61,289 bases of DNA from Desulfoscipio geothermicus DSM 3669 (GTDB lineage: Bacteria > Bacillota > Desulfotomaculia > Desulfotomaculales > Desulfallaceae). Under the pieces are notes generated by a model, which was not told the origin of the DNA, did no database searches, and was given only the letters and a program-made list of their open reading frames with translations. Positions 49,494 through 60,910 of this stretch are shown here, piece by piece (position 1 is the stretch's first letter; every line of letters starts with the position of its first letter). Made by a program: the position numbers and the translations under genes. Location: NCBI RefSeq assembly GCF_900115975.1, contig NZ_FOYM01000022.1, forward strand, positions 1 to 61,289. The letters are read 5' to 3'.

Positions 49494-50708
49494 ATGTCAA
49501 AAAGGCATGTAATTACAGGCTGCAGCTTTCAAGCGGGTCAAACTGTCTCCATTGAGCCGGGCGGTCAGATTATGCTACCATCGGATACTAGTCAAACCAA
49601 CGGTAATAACGGTGCTGTAGAGGCGTTATGCATCAAAACTAAAAACGGTTTTCAAATTATCCCACGGGTAGTTGATGTTAGAAAACTATATATTGAAGCC
49701 ACCACGGTTTGCAACTTTGCTTGCACAACCTGTATTAGAAATTCCTGGCATGACGAACTGTCCCACATGGAGTGGGGTGTTTTTAAGCGCATTGCAGAGA
49801 GTTTGGACAGGTTGCCGCGACTCGAGCGTGTCCACTTCGGCGGCTTCGGCGAGCCCTTCAGCCACCCCCGGCTGCTGGACATGCTGGAAACAGTAAAAAA
49901 CAGGGGACTACGGGCTGAAGTCATCACCAACGGTTCATTATTATCAGAGGAGGTTATCAATAAACTTATTGATCTCAAACTGGATATGATATTTGTTTCC
50001 CTGGACGGCCCGGACGAGGCAGAATACTGCCATATCCGGCAGGGGGCGGATTTTCACGGGGTTCTGAACAATTTAAATCTGCTTAATGAAATAAAAGCCC
50101 AAAGAGGCGTACACTACCCCGAGCTGGGCATTGAATTCGTAGCTACCAAGGATAATTTCCATAAACTACCATGCCTGGCCAAACTGGTACAGGAATTGAA
50201 CGCGCGCCGGATGATTGTTACCAATGTGTTGCCTTATAATGAGGAGATGAAAGATCAAATTCTTTATGACATGGACGATACGGGGGCGCTTTTTGGTAAT
50301 GATTCGGTTTTGCTGATGATTCAGGCCCAAATGCCGTATATGAAATTGCGCACCGAACGGTACTGCAAATTCGTCGAGGACAAGGCAATGGTCGTCAACC
50401 ACATGGGTTTTGTTTCGCCCTGTTATGCACTGATGCATTCGTACAACTGCTATATATATGGCCGTATTAAGGAAATGTATCCTTTTTACCTGGGTAATGT
50501 AACTGAAAAAAAACTGGACCAAATATGGACAGAACCTATTTACATTAACTTTCGGCGGGCTGTTAATAATTTCCATTTTCCATCCTGTACCGATTGCAAG
50601 TTCCTGGACGGCTGTTCATATGTGGATAACAATGACGGTGATTGTTGGGGCAACAGCCCGTCCTGCGCAGAATGTCTCTGGTCCAGGCAGTTAATCGCCT
50701 GCCCTTAA
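49494..50708 (+). CDS. Radical SAM/SPASM protein, probably tungsten-cofactor oxidoreductase maturase type
   Basis: 404 aa, GGGAGG upstream. The cluster motif CNFACTTC (Cys73, 77, 80) is followed by 'FGGFGEPFSHPRLLDMLETV', 'EVITNGSLLSEEVINKL' and 'DMIFVSLDGPD'. The SPASM region has 'GFVSPCYALMHSY', 'CTDCKFLDGCSY', 'CWGNSPSCAECLWSRQ' (extra cluster Cys). The layout resembles maturases that accompany tungsten aldehyde:ferredoxin oxidoreductases, but no such oxidoreductase is in this window. Peptide- or metalloid-modifying roles remain possible. Confidence 0.8.
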   Translation: MSKRHVITGCSFQAGQTVSIEPGGQIMLPSDTSQTNGNNGAVEALCIKTKNGFQIIPRVVDVRKLYIEATTVCNFACTTCIRNSWHDELSHMEWGVFKRIAESLDRLPRLERVHFGGFGEPFSHPRLLDMLETVKNRGLRAEVITNGSLLSEEVINKLIDLKLDMIFVSLDGPDEAEYCHIRQGADFHGVLNNLNLLNEIKAQRGVHYPELGIEFVATKDNFHKLPCLAKLVQELNARRMIVTNVLPYNEEMKDQILYDMDDTGALFGNDSVLLMIQAQMPYMKLRTERYCKFVEDKAMVVNHMGFVSPCYALMHSYNCYIYGRIKEMYPFYLGNVTEKKLDQIWTEPIYINFRRAVNNFHFPSCTDCKFLDGCSYVDNNDGDCWGNSPSCAECLWSRQLIACP

Positions 50709-51278: not shown

Positions 51279-51305
51279 AATAATTGAGTGGGGAGGTTAA
51301 AACTG

Positions 51306-52370
51306 ATGCCTGACTCAGTAACTGGCAAACTAAATTTTCTGGACCGGTATTTAACGCTCTGGATTTTCCTGGCCATGGCAGTTGGGGTGGCGGGTGGTTA
51401 CATTTACCCGCAAATCGCTGACTTTTGGGGACAATTCCAGGTAGGCACCACCAATATCCCCATTGCCATCGGTTTGATTATCATGATGTACCCGCCCCTG
51501 GCCAGGGTAAAGTACGAGGAAATAGGCAAAGTATTTACCAACGGCAAGGTCATGGGCCTCAGCCTGGTGCAGAACTGGATTATCGGCCCGCTGTTGATGT
51601 TTTTTCTGGCCATAATTTTCCTGCGGGGCTACCCGGAATACATGACAGGCCTTATTCTGATCGGCCTGGCCCGCTGCATTGCGATGGTCATAGTCTGGAA
51701 CGGACTGGCTAAAGGAGATTCCGAGTACGCCGCCGCCCTGGTGGCATTAAACTCTATCTTCCAGGTACTGTTCTTTTCGTTATACGCTTACTTTTTCATT
51801 ACCCTGATGCCCCGGTGGTTTGGCCTGGAGTCTTTGGAAGTACACATTTCGATGGCGGAAGTGGCCAAGAGCGTGTTTATCTATCTCGGTATACCTTTTC
51901 TGGCGGGTATTATTACCCGGTTTACCTTAATGCCGGTGAAGGGCAAGGAATGGTATGACAAACAGTTTATGCCCAAAATCGGTCCTTTAACTTTAATTGC
52001 TTTGCTGTTTACCATCGTGGTGATGTTCTCCCTGAAGGGCAATTATATTGTTACCCTGCCGATGGATGTGGTTAGGATTGCCATACCACTGGTCCTGTAC
52101 TTTTTAATCATGTTCATATTTTCGTTCTTTATGAGCAAAAAGATGGGAGTCAATTATGAGCAGGCCACAACCCTTTCCTTTACCGCCGCCAGCAACAATT
52201 TTGAGCTGGCCATCGCAGTGGCGGTGGCGGTGTTCGGTATCAATTCCGGCCAGGCTTTTGCTGCGGTAATCGGCCCGCTTATTGAAGTACCGGTGATGAT
52301 CTGGCTGGTCAACGTAGCCCTATCTTTCAAACGGAAATATTTCGATCAAAGGGTGCTGCCGACCAGGTGA
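51306..52370 (+). CDS. acr3: ACR3-type arsenite efflux carrier
   Basis: 354 aa from ATG behind GGGGAGG. Ten helices. The substrate Cys is in '[20 protein letters not shown]', the classical ACR3 motif, and the second motif is '[20 protein letters not shown]' with Glu. It expels As(III) by proton exchange. An arsR gene and a phosphoesterase gene follow in the same orientation. Confidence 0.95.
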
Positions 52371-52430
52371 TACAAGAATTTAGCCGGGATGCAACCGTTG
52401 CTCCCGGCTGTATCTATTGGGGGAAGAATA

Positions 52431-52793
52431 ATGAAGGCTGTGTTGGACTTTTTAAAAATTTTAGCTGATGAAACCCGGCTGAAAATTATCATGATGTTAT
52501 CCCGGCGGGATATGTGTGTCTGCGAAATCATGGATGAGTTGGGTATGTCTCAGCCTGCTGTTTCCCACCATCTCAGGATCTTGAAGAAAAGCGGCATAGT
52601 GCGGGATGACAAAGATGGCCGCTGGGTATTTTATTCCTTGAATCAAAAGGTTTTTGCGCAACGGGTATGTACTAATAATGACTTGTTTAATCAAATAAGG
52701 GGCAACTTGGAAAACCGGCAATCGCACCGGGATTACGACGCCTGTCTGCGTATGGAAAAAGAAATACACTCATGCCTTAAAGCAAACAATTAG
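52431..52793 (+). CDS. arsR: ArsR-family arsenic-responsive repressor
   Basis: 120 aa from ATG behind GGGGGAAG. 'KILADETRLKIIMMLSRRDM' is followed by CVCEIMDE, the classical As(III)-binding CVC helix, then 'GMSQPAVSHHLRILKKSG' and 'DGRWVFYSLN'. Extra Cys occur near the C-terminus. It is encoded after acr3, so likely a negative feedback regulator of the island dyads. Confidence 0.95.
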   Translation: MKAVLDFLKILADETRLKIIMMLSRRDMCVCEIMDELGMSQPAVSHHLRILKKSGIVRDDKDGRWVFYSLNQKVFAQRVCTNNDLFNQIRGNLENRQSHRDYDACLRMEKEIHSCLKANN

Positions 52794-54732: not shown

Positions 54733-55070
54733 CTACGAAACAAAATACCCGTTCCCTTTTTCGGTACGGGCATAGATAAGGTAAGCAGAATAAAATAATG
54801 TCAATCTTTCGAGCCAATCGTCTTTTTCAATGGCAAGGTAGGGGGAGTTATTTTGCCTTTGCTCTATCAGCCCCATATTCATAAGAGGCGATAAATATTG
54901 GTCAACCAGACCTTCTAAATTTGAGAGTTTAGGAAGTTGGGGCCAGTGAGGAATATCCCGGAAATACTTAAAAACAAACTTAATCGCATTTTCAACATCG
55001 GTATGAGGTAAGCTTCCGATACCTGTTGCTAACCCATTAGGGGTAATTTTTCTAGAATTTCATTCACCAT
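54733..55070 (-). pseudogene. Frameshifted and truncated methionine-synthase/UROD-like gene
   Basis: ATG at 55070 follows AAGGAT, but the frame stops after ~13 codons. In another frame homology starts 'PNGLATGIGSLPHTDVENAI', 'FKYFRDIPHWPQLPKLSNLE' and 'LVDQYLSPLMNMGLIEQ', the N-terminal pattern of MetE/uroporphyrinogen decarboxylase-fold methyltransferases. It breaks off at 'GNGYFVS'. It was the downstream partner of the DUF5714 gene. Confidence 0.7.
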
Positions 55071-55072
55071 CG

Positions 55073-55849
55073 CTATCCTTGATAATAGTGGCATCTTTCT
55101 TTTCTACAGCCGTGCGGGTGCCGGTGGCTGTCGCTGCAGACCAACTCTCCGTCGCAAGGTAAGGCAATTTTTAGATGTTCTTGTACGAGTTTACAGCTTA
55201 AAGTCAAAGCCGTCCGTACAAAGTTTTTGCAGCAACATGGGCCTGTTTGGTTTGCTATGGCTTCGATAACCTGAGACACAACACTCATGGTAGCGGCAGT
55301 TTCCTTATCCTTTGGACAGGCGGCACCCAAAATAACGCTGAAACAAGCCCCGATAGCGGGAGCTACGCCGCAAATACCAGTTAAGCCGCAATAGGCGCCT
55401 ATGGCCTGTTTTCTTGTCCGGCTCAAAGCCTCAGTAATTTGACTTTCCGTGATTTTAATTTCTCTGCTGTTTTTAATTGCTGCCAAAAGAGCCCCCGCAG
55501 CTATCCATGCATGTTCACAGCCCAACATTGGTATGGGGGCTGATTTCATCATCGTTTCGGCAACTTCCAATGGATTAGTGCCTCGTGCAGTGAGAGCCAA
55601 ATTTAAGATTTTTTCATAAGAATCTTTCCCATGACACTCGTCACAGACATAATGGCTGTTTGGACAGTAAACGTAGCCAATTTCTTTTTGCCCGCAGTAT
55701 ATGCAAGAAAACTCTCTGCCGGATTCCAGGTAGTCAAGTTTATTTCCACAAATCAGGCAGTTTTCTAAAATATTTTCTTGGTGTTGACCAACACCTTCTT
55801 GGGATGAGCCTCAGCAGCCTGTCCCATGTCCCAGTTCTTTTATAGTCAT
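55073..55849 (-). CDS. Putative selenoprotein: DUF5714 family protein with Cys-Sec motif
   Basis: 258 aa if UGA (55811-55813) is selenocysteine, residue 13, in GTGC-U-GSSQEG. ATG at 55849 follows GGGGGGTG with six bases of spacing. The frame is open after UGA: 'CLICGNKLDYLESG', 'FSCIYCGQKEIGYVYC', 'HYVCDECHGKDSYEKI' (Zn-ribbon Cys pairs), then 'IPMLGCEHAWIAAGALLAAI', the DUF5714 core, and 'TGICGVAPAIGACFSVILGA'. A compact hairpin with GGUC loop lies at SECIS distance. Start, ribosome site and SECIS agree, so I think recoding is real. The C-terminus 'RHPHGCRKERCHYY' is Cys/His-rich. The function is unknown; the family often sits near methyltransferases. Confidence 0.87.
55780..55813 (-). promoter_or_regulatory. 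SECIS element of the DUF5714 gene
   Basis: GGTGTT-GGTC-AACACC (55780-55795) begins 16 bases after UGA; the loop begins 22 bases after it. The six-pair stem and a G-G-U-C loop match bacterial SECIS rules, including G in the first loop positions as recognised by SelB. Confidence 0.8.
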
Positions 55850-59654: not shown

Positions 59655-60353
59655 TTACACGGCTTCGATGGCGCCGGCAAGTTTTTCCTTGCTTAAAAGG
59701 ATAAATTGGTGTCCCCTGGTGGCGATGGCCCCCTCCTGCTTCAAATCGCCCAGAACATTGGTCACCATGACCCGCGAGGCGTTGACCAGGGATGCTATAT
59801 CCTGGTGAGTGAGGTCGATATCGATAATGGTTCCTTCGGGAGAAGGTTTTCCGTATTCACCGGCCAGCCTGAGCAGCATGGCCGAAATTCTGCCTTTCAC
59901 ATCCTGGAAGGCGATGCTGGCTACCTTATCGGTGTAATTATTTAATTTGCCCCCCAGCAGTTGGATTATTTTCAGGGCTGTTTGCGGGTTTTGCAGCAAA
60001 ATGGCGAAGTGTTCTTTATTACATGAGCAGATAAAGGTATCCTTCATCGCCTGAGCATTCATGGTATGGCGGGCGTTTTCTTCAAAAAAAGTGTTTTCAC
60101 CGAAAATATCGTCCTCTTTGAGGATATCGAGGGTAATTTCCTTGCCACCTTCCGAAACTTTGAACAGCCTGACCTGGCCATACTTGATCAGGTAGATAGT
60201 ATGCGCGGGATCTCCATCCCGGAAAATCATTTCGTTTTTACGGTAGACTTTTTTACCGGCCAGTACCCCGATTTTTTCCCGTTCCGTAAAATCAAGGGTG
60301 GCAAACAGGGCCAGCTCTTTCATGCATTTAATTTTTTGCATTAATTGTTTCAC
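59655..60353 (-). CDS. Crp/Fnr-family regulator
   Basis: 232 aa. Cyclic-nucleotide-binding-type beta barrel (about 15-130; 'KNEMIFRDGDPAHTIYLIKY', 'DIFGENTFFEENARHTMNAQ') and a C-terminal helix-turn-helix (LTHQDIASLVNASRVMVTNV). The four-Cys Fnr cluster motif is not present; Cys occur at 'CSCNKEH'. Its start overlaps the DUF1638 stop by four bases. Confidence 0.9.
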   Translation of the reverse strand: MKQLMQKIKCMKELALFATLDFTEREKIGVLAGKKVYRKNEMIFRDGDPAHTIYLIKYGQVRLFKVSEGGKEITLDILKEDDIFGENTFFEENARHTMNAQAMKDTFICSCNKEHFAILLQNPQTALKIIQLLGGKLNNYTDKVASIAFQDVKGRISAMLLRLAGEYGKPSPEGTIIDIDLTHQDIASLVNASRVMVTNVLGDLKQEGAIATRGHQFILLSKEKLAGAIEAV

Positions 60354-60910
60354 CCGTTCAAAAGTTGTTCCAACAGCTTGCGTAAATTGTCCAGGTCCAC
60401 CGGTATAGTTTCCACGGGCACTTGAGCGTAGTCATAGAATTCAAGCAGATTCATATCATCAATGGGTACAATTCCTGTGTCCAAAAGCAATATACGATCA
60501 TAATAACCAAAATTTTGCCGGGCATCAACCGCGTCCCAACCTAGCCCTTCCATAAAAATCTTGCGCCAGTTTTCCAGCCACCCGCTGGTGAGGTAAAAAG
60601 TTTTGGCTTCGGCGTCCAGCTCCGCCATTTTTTCTCCCAGGAGCATCTCAATGCAACTTTTAGCCTGAATTACCCGCCCGCCGTGTTCTGCAGCTATTTG
60701 CTCTATCTCCGGATGGCATTGATTCCCTATTATCAAAGGGATATTGATTCCAGCTATTCCGCGCAAGTTTTCGGTTACGGATTGGGCCAGCTTATCAAGA
60801 TCTACGTGTAAAGCTGCGTCGATGTAGGTAATATCTGTATTTTGTTCCCCTAACAGGTGTTCCAATTCATGGCGCAGTATGCCGCAGCATAATATTTTTT
60901 TTCCGGACAA
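60350..60910 (-). CDS. DUF1638 family protein
   Basis: 186 aa starting at TTG behind AGGGGGTG. 'KILCCGILRHELEHLL', 'NIPLIIGNQCHPEIEQIA', 'IQAKSCIEMLLG', 'FYLTSGWLENWRKIF' and 'LLLDTGIVP' fit DUF1638, found with corrinoid methyltransferase systems in anaerobes. It probably forms an operon with the Crp-type regulator. Confidence 0.88.
   Translation of the reverse strand: MSGKKILCCGILRHELEHLLGEQNTDITYIDAALHVDLDKLAQSVTENLRGIAGINIPLIIGNQCHPEIEQIAAEHGGRVIQAKSCIEMLLGEKMAELDAEAKTFYLTSGWLENWRKIFMEGLGWDAVDARQNFGYYDRILLLDTGIVPIDDMNLLEFYDYAQVPVETIPVDLDNLRKLLEQLLNG

Follow-up and report, generated by a model that had tools for sequence, protein, structure and literature searches.

In the genome of Desulfoscipio geothermicus DSM 3669, a reading frame for a DUF5714 protein contains a UGA codon directly after a cysteine codon. 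This raises the questions of whether the UGA is read as selenocysteine (Sec), and what a protein with a Cys-Sec pair near its N-terminus might do. We analyzed the locus within a stretch of 61,289 nucleotides (the window), compared it with related loci from other genomes, and modeled the encoded protein.

A preliminary description had placed the UGA 12 codons after a well-placed ATG, in a long frame continuing to position 55073. All of these coordinates were correct. The ATG follows a Shine-Dalgarno-like motif in the 5' sequence AGGGGGGTG, the UGA is flanked by TGC (Cys) and GGC (Gly) codons, and the remainder of the minus-strand frame from 55849 is open as far as a TAG at 55073-55075. The assignment to DUF5714 was borne out by a match covering the whole Pfam profile (PF18978, positions 1-173 of 173; 177.5 bits, 2e-52; curated cut-off 26.2 bits). 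As had been foreseen for a plain annotation, the standard ORF call starts internally, at a TTG at 55600, and yields 175 aa only, with the N-terminus and its Sec motif lost. A plasmid-collection search gave one close match, in Acetoanaerobium noterae; this stretch carries no annotation and is therefore uninformative on how annotators treat the gene. The features of the locus are collected in Table 1.

Table 1. Features of the DUF5714 locus, in window coordinates, and of related fusion genes at other loci (last row).
Feature	Position	Strand	Details
Predicted DUF5714 selenoprotein gene	55073..55849	-	258 aa with Sec, MTIKELGHGTGCUGSSQEG...; Sec is residue 13
ATG start codon	55847..55849	-	Shine-Dalgarno-like AGGGGGG just 5'
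UGA, almost certainly read as Sec	55811..55813	-	Codon 13, immediately 3' of Cys12
SECIS-like hairpin	55780..55795	-	GGUGUU-GGUC-AACACC; 6-bp stem, GGUC loop, 15 nt past UGA
Cys/His-rich zinc-ribbon-like segment	55631..55762	-	C31, C34, C49, C52, C62, H66, C69, C72, H73
DUF5714 domain (PF18978), mostly helical	55082..55609	-	Invariant C154, C160, C178, C206, C207, C238, H244, H246, C248, C253
Meth_synt_2-like (MetE catalytic-domain-like) remnant	54733..55050	-	About 100 aa remain of about 355; lies just downstream of the DUF5714 gene
ACR3 arsenite efflux transporter	51288-52370	+	TIGR00832, 461 bits
ArsR-type regulator	52389-52793	+	
DUF5714-AhpD fusion genes	L118 8019-8993; L151; L089/L049; L117/L052		Two in-frame UGAs (C-U-G, CEPUTQYC)

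The hairpin downstream of the UGA was compared with the bacterial SECIS model, which specifies a stem of 4-16 bp, a loop of 3-9 nt, a UGA-to-loop distance of 16-37 nt, a G within the first two loop positions and a free energy threshold of -7.5 kcal/mol (PMC13188914). The stem and loop were located where they had been described, with the first base of the hairpin being the 16th after the UGA, and the geometry satisfies the model (6 bp, 4 nt and a UGA-to-loop distance of 21 nt). The preliminary description had called this a textbook SECIS element, which holds for spacing, stem, loop size and loop G but has to be qualified for energy: the isolated hairpin reaches -5.4 kcal/mol, weaker than the threshold, and a 61-nt segment -17.9 kcal/mol (z -1.84), so that the value depends on the length of sequence counted.

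The reading had been made to depend on homologues that keep the residue pair and on Sec machinery in the genome, and both were found. The C-UGA pair is present in 8/8 DUF5714 homologues of the family and in 67 of 80 related loci from named genomes (a script counted 65, and L140 and L148 were read from its output), with G-UGA in two more (L119 and L120). The C-UGA loci span Bacillota, Nitrospirota, Desulfobacterota-type and other genomes, in dozens of genera. The hairpin recurs with the codon. Under one fixed procedure, a hairpin score of at least 12 was obtained for 91% of 80 distinct homologous UGAs vs 3.5% of control codons from the same genes, and at fixed spacings of 18 or 21 nt the values were 89% and 0.5%. 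Most stem positions show several Watson-Crick pairs among the homologues (A-T/G-C/C-G at position 5, T-A/C-G/G-C at position 4), indicating compensatory changes, and 49 of the 80 hairpins have GGUC as their apical loop. Shuffling of alignment columns lowered stem pairing from 0.89 to 0.59; this control is generous, because the hairpin anchors were picked by best score, and the in-gene codons treated by the same procedure are the fair one. A chance origin of UGA and hairpin is untenable given the conserved C-UGA and the recurring hairpin. Codons around the UGA were also compared pairwise on a small scale, over too short a stretch for selection upstream of it to emerge.

Sec is not universal in DUF5714 proteins. 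In Pelotomaculum sp. PtaB.Bin104 (L079, 8021-8060; also encountered as L037), TCA (Ser) replaces TGA while the hairpin is intact, which may mean that Sec was lost not long ago or that the assembly contains an error. An Arg occupies the Sec position in L136, and several Nitrospirota copies have no N-terminal arm. These exceptions are consistent with occasional loss of Sec.

The 3.65-Mb Desulfoscipio geothermicus genome encodes selA (617 bits), selB (384 bits) and, on the same contig as these two, a tRNA-Sec with a UCA anticodon. Its selD carries an in-frame UGA of its own, at 'TSGUAAK', which we take to be the usual Sec site of SelD. A second selD-like sequence in the same genome (G000:C37:650-1568; L027, L028) is split between two matches that overlap, the N-terminal one of which contains a TGA. 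Co-occurrence of DUF5714 with selA is uninformative, because selA was found in 109 of 113 genomes of the order. Judged by comparison across these loci, the UGA is almost certainly recoded as Sec.

Beyond the arm, the protein continues with a Cys/His-rich segment whose Cys and His residues fall in invariant or near-invariant columns of two homologue alignments, and which we infer to be a zinc ribbon, followed by the DUF5714 domain. An AlphaFold2 model had a pLDDT of 85 and a pTM of 0.83, with residues 1-23 below a pLDDT of 50. The Cys-Sec arm is thus predicted to be disordered or mobile, and the low values there may also merely stem from poor alignment coverage. Foldseek with this model returned nothing at an E-value of 0.001 or better, the best VIA-align row (Z 5.5) did not exceed what common helical arrangements give, and when PDB sequences were searched by profile, the only matches were weak ones of zinc-finger type and unrelated ones; no fold was assigned.

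The 80 distinct UGA-bearing loci comprise 67 stand-alone proteins, nine fusions to DUF2284 of the MbdU type and four AhpD fusions with a second UGA; the classes were set by simple sequence motifs, and a few of the stand-alone loci have extra C-terminal sequence. We propose the following mechanism. SelB, Sec-tRNA(UCA) and the hairpin would decode the UGA as Sec. In the product, a short arm at the N-terminus would bear the Cys-Sec-Gly motif, with the zinc-ribbon-like segment and the helical, Cys-rich DUF5714 domain behind it. The adjacent Cys and Sec residues, which would move with respect to the core, may bind a thiophilic metal(loid) or an organic derivative of one, most likely an arsenical, or may alternatively reduce the metal(loid) via a selenenylsulfide; the pair would then present the metal(loid) to partner domains and to the core with its many cysteines. 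In Desulfoscipio geothermicus the DUF5714 protein would work stand-alone; relatives have a second redox module fused in cis (DUF2284-Sec or AhpD-Sec). We give this explanation as a whole, Sec decoding plus a Cys-Sec arm handling a thiophilic metal(loid), a probability of roughly 0.6. The metal(loid) role taken by itself is mildly favored, because DUF5714 proteins and arsenite-methyltransferase selenoproteins carry the same two Sec-containing modules, DUF2284 and AhpD/CMD.

The neighborhood of the gene was also considered. The ACR3 and ArsR genes lie 2.3-4.6 kb from the DUF5714 gene. They are on the opposite strand and beyond a transposase fragment, and a tally of 120 flanking ORFs revealed no dominant Pfam family and no dominant metal family, so the link to arsenic draws mainly on the domain swapping. 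Elsewhere in the window, a tungsten cofactor oxidoreductase radical SAM maturase is encoded at 49494-50708 (plus strand; TIGR04317, 420 bits) and a DUF1638 protein at 60350-60910 (minus strand); a DUF1638 gene is also found directly upstream of the DUF5714 selenoprotein gene in L080 and L085. The Meth_synt_2-like remnant downstream of the DUF5714 gene shows 49-56% identity, and a complete second copy is located elsewhere in the genome (G000:C69).

Some of these neighbors point to a different role for the Sec residue, in corrinoid or zinc-thiolate methyl transfer, where the Cys-Sec pair would accept, donate or protect a methyl-carrying center for a MetE-like or URO-D/MtaA-like partner. Such a role would fit the remnant in the window, the intact Meth_synt_2-like gene directly downstream in five loci that include all three architectures (L081, L091, L109, L118 and L151), the genes for a corrinoid protein, URO-D/MtaA and a RACo-type activase adjoining or near the DUF5714 gene in L082/L083, L080/L085, L095 and L123, and the DUF1638 genes of L080, L085 and the window. 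We regard it as unlikely, as neighbors of this kind are absent from most loci, and 80 of the 113 genomes of the order contain the Meth_synt_2-like family, almost always apart from DUF5714, which makes the adjacency sporadic and weak as a sign of partnership.

General redox or thiol repair, in which a selenenylsulfide would carry electrons to the protein's own zinc ribbon or to an AhpD-like partner, without a specific metal(loid) substrate, appears quite improbable. It would be in keeping with the Sec of the AhpD fusions, which sits at a CxxC-like site (C-E-P-U), and with a sub-cut-off match of the DUF5714 domain of L047 to the redox-active C_GCAxxG_C_C family (PF09719, 3e-4), but the AhpD and DUF2284 modules are also found on arsenite-methyltransferase selenoproteins, which points to a specific metabolite. 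A last alternative takes the UGA for a true stop. Translation would then start further downstream, at TTG 55600 or elsewhere, and the features 5' of that start (ATG, Cys codon, hairpin) would be coincidence or a leader peptide. This would agree with the internal ORF call and with the armless Nitrospirota relatives, but a start at the TTG would drop the conserved zinc-ribbon cysteines C31-C72, the C-UGA and the hairpin are kept across dozens of genera, and the genome decodes Sec; the reading was rejected on these comparative grounds as very improbable.

Reading the UGA as Sec has consequences for annotation. Automatic annotation is expected to begin such genes internally and to name the product a 'DUF5714 domain-containing protein', dropping the probable active site. 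The curated MbdU model takes only the longer two-Sec fusion, yet most of the UGA-bearing loci were classed as stand-alone. The stand-alone and AhpD-fused forms therefore broaden a recent and uncharacterized selenoprotein family, and the former offers a compact single-Sec protein for testing its chemistry.

Among the DUF5714 proteins encountered, three (L031, with a radical SAM-like region, and the stand-alone L032 and L033) have the DUF5714 domain and begin with a stretch rich in Cys, VCCCPDEDH or ICSCNTDH, close to where Sec would lie. They carry cysteines rather than Sec; because their distance to the zinc-ribbon Cys is not the same, strict Cys/Sec pairing is not proven. No paper in the literature library searched names DUF5714. 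MbdU, the metal-binding double selenoprotein, is listed with the motif 'CU' and two Sec residues in a 2026 review, which credits Haft & Tolstoy 2025 (PMC13188914). The window protein matches the MbdU model (NF045648) partially, over positions 32-267 of 468, and with 359 bits does not pass the 600-bit cut-off; no other selenoprotein model of NCBIfam 20.0 fits it. L047 passes the cut-off (780 bits), with its first UGA reading DC-U-G and its second Sec in a C-terminal DUF2284 domain. The Cys-Sec motif of DUF5714 was thus already known, since the same site is the first Sec of MbdU. The two proteins have the N-terminal DUF5714 half and the Cys-Sec motif in common. They differ in that MbdU has about 468 aa and a C-terminal DUF2284 domain with the second Sec, whereas the window protein gave no DUF2284 match and stops after DUF5714, with 258 aa and one Sec. 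The stand-alone single-Sec form is outside the curated selenoprotein models of NCBIfam 20.0, although the original description of MbdU (Haft & Tolstoy 2025) may already mention it.

The DUF5714-AhpD fusions (L049, L052, L118 and L151) share the Cys-Sec arm and the DUF5714 domain with the window protein and differ from it by a further CMD/AhpD domain, which contains a second UGA; L118 was the fusion tested, and it stayed below every NCBIfam cut-off. A parallel to both kinds of fusion is provided by the arsenite methyltransferase/DUF2284 and arsenite methyltransferase/AhpD selenoproteins (NF041536 and NF041537). NF041536 scores 210.9 bits to L129 and NF041537 98 bits to L118. We tentatively suggest, as a doubtful extension of the main reading, that stand-alone single-Sec DUF5714 could be the main version of a module that depends on Sec to handle organometalloids and swaps with arsenite methyltransferase on Sec-containing DUF2284 and AhpD partners, and that it could define an uncatalogued family without a convincing PDB fold match. 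The C-terminal modules with Sec are the same in the two sets of proteins, and the N-terminal half is a methyltransferase in the known selenoproteins and DUF5714 in the fusions.
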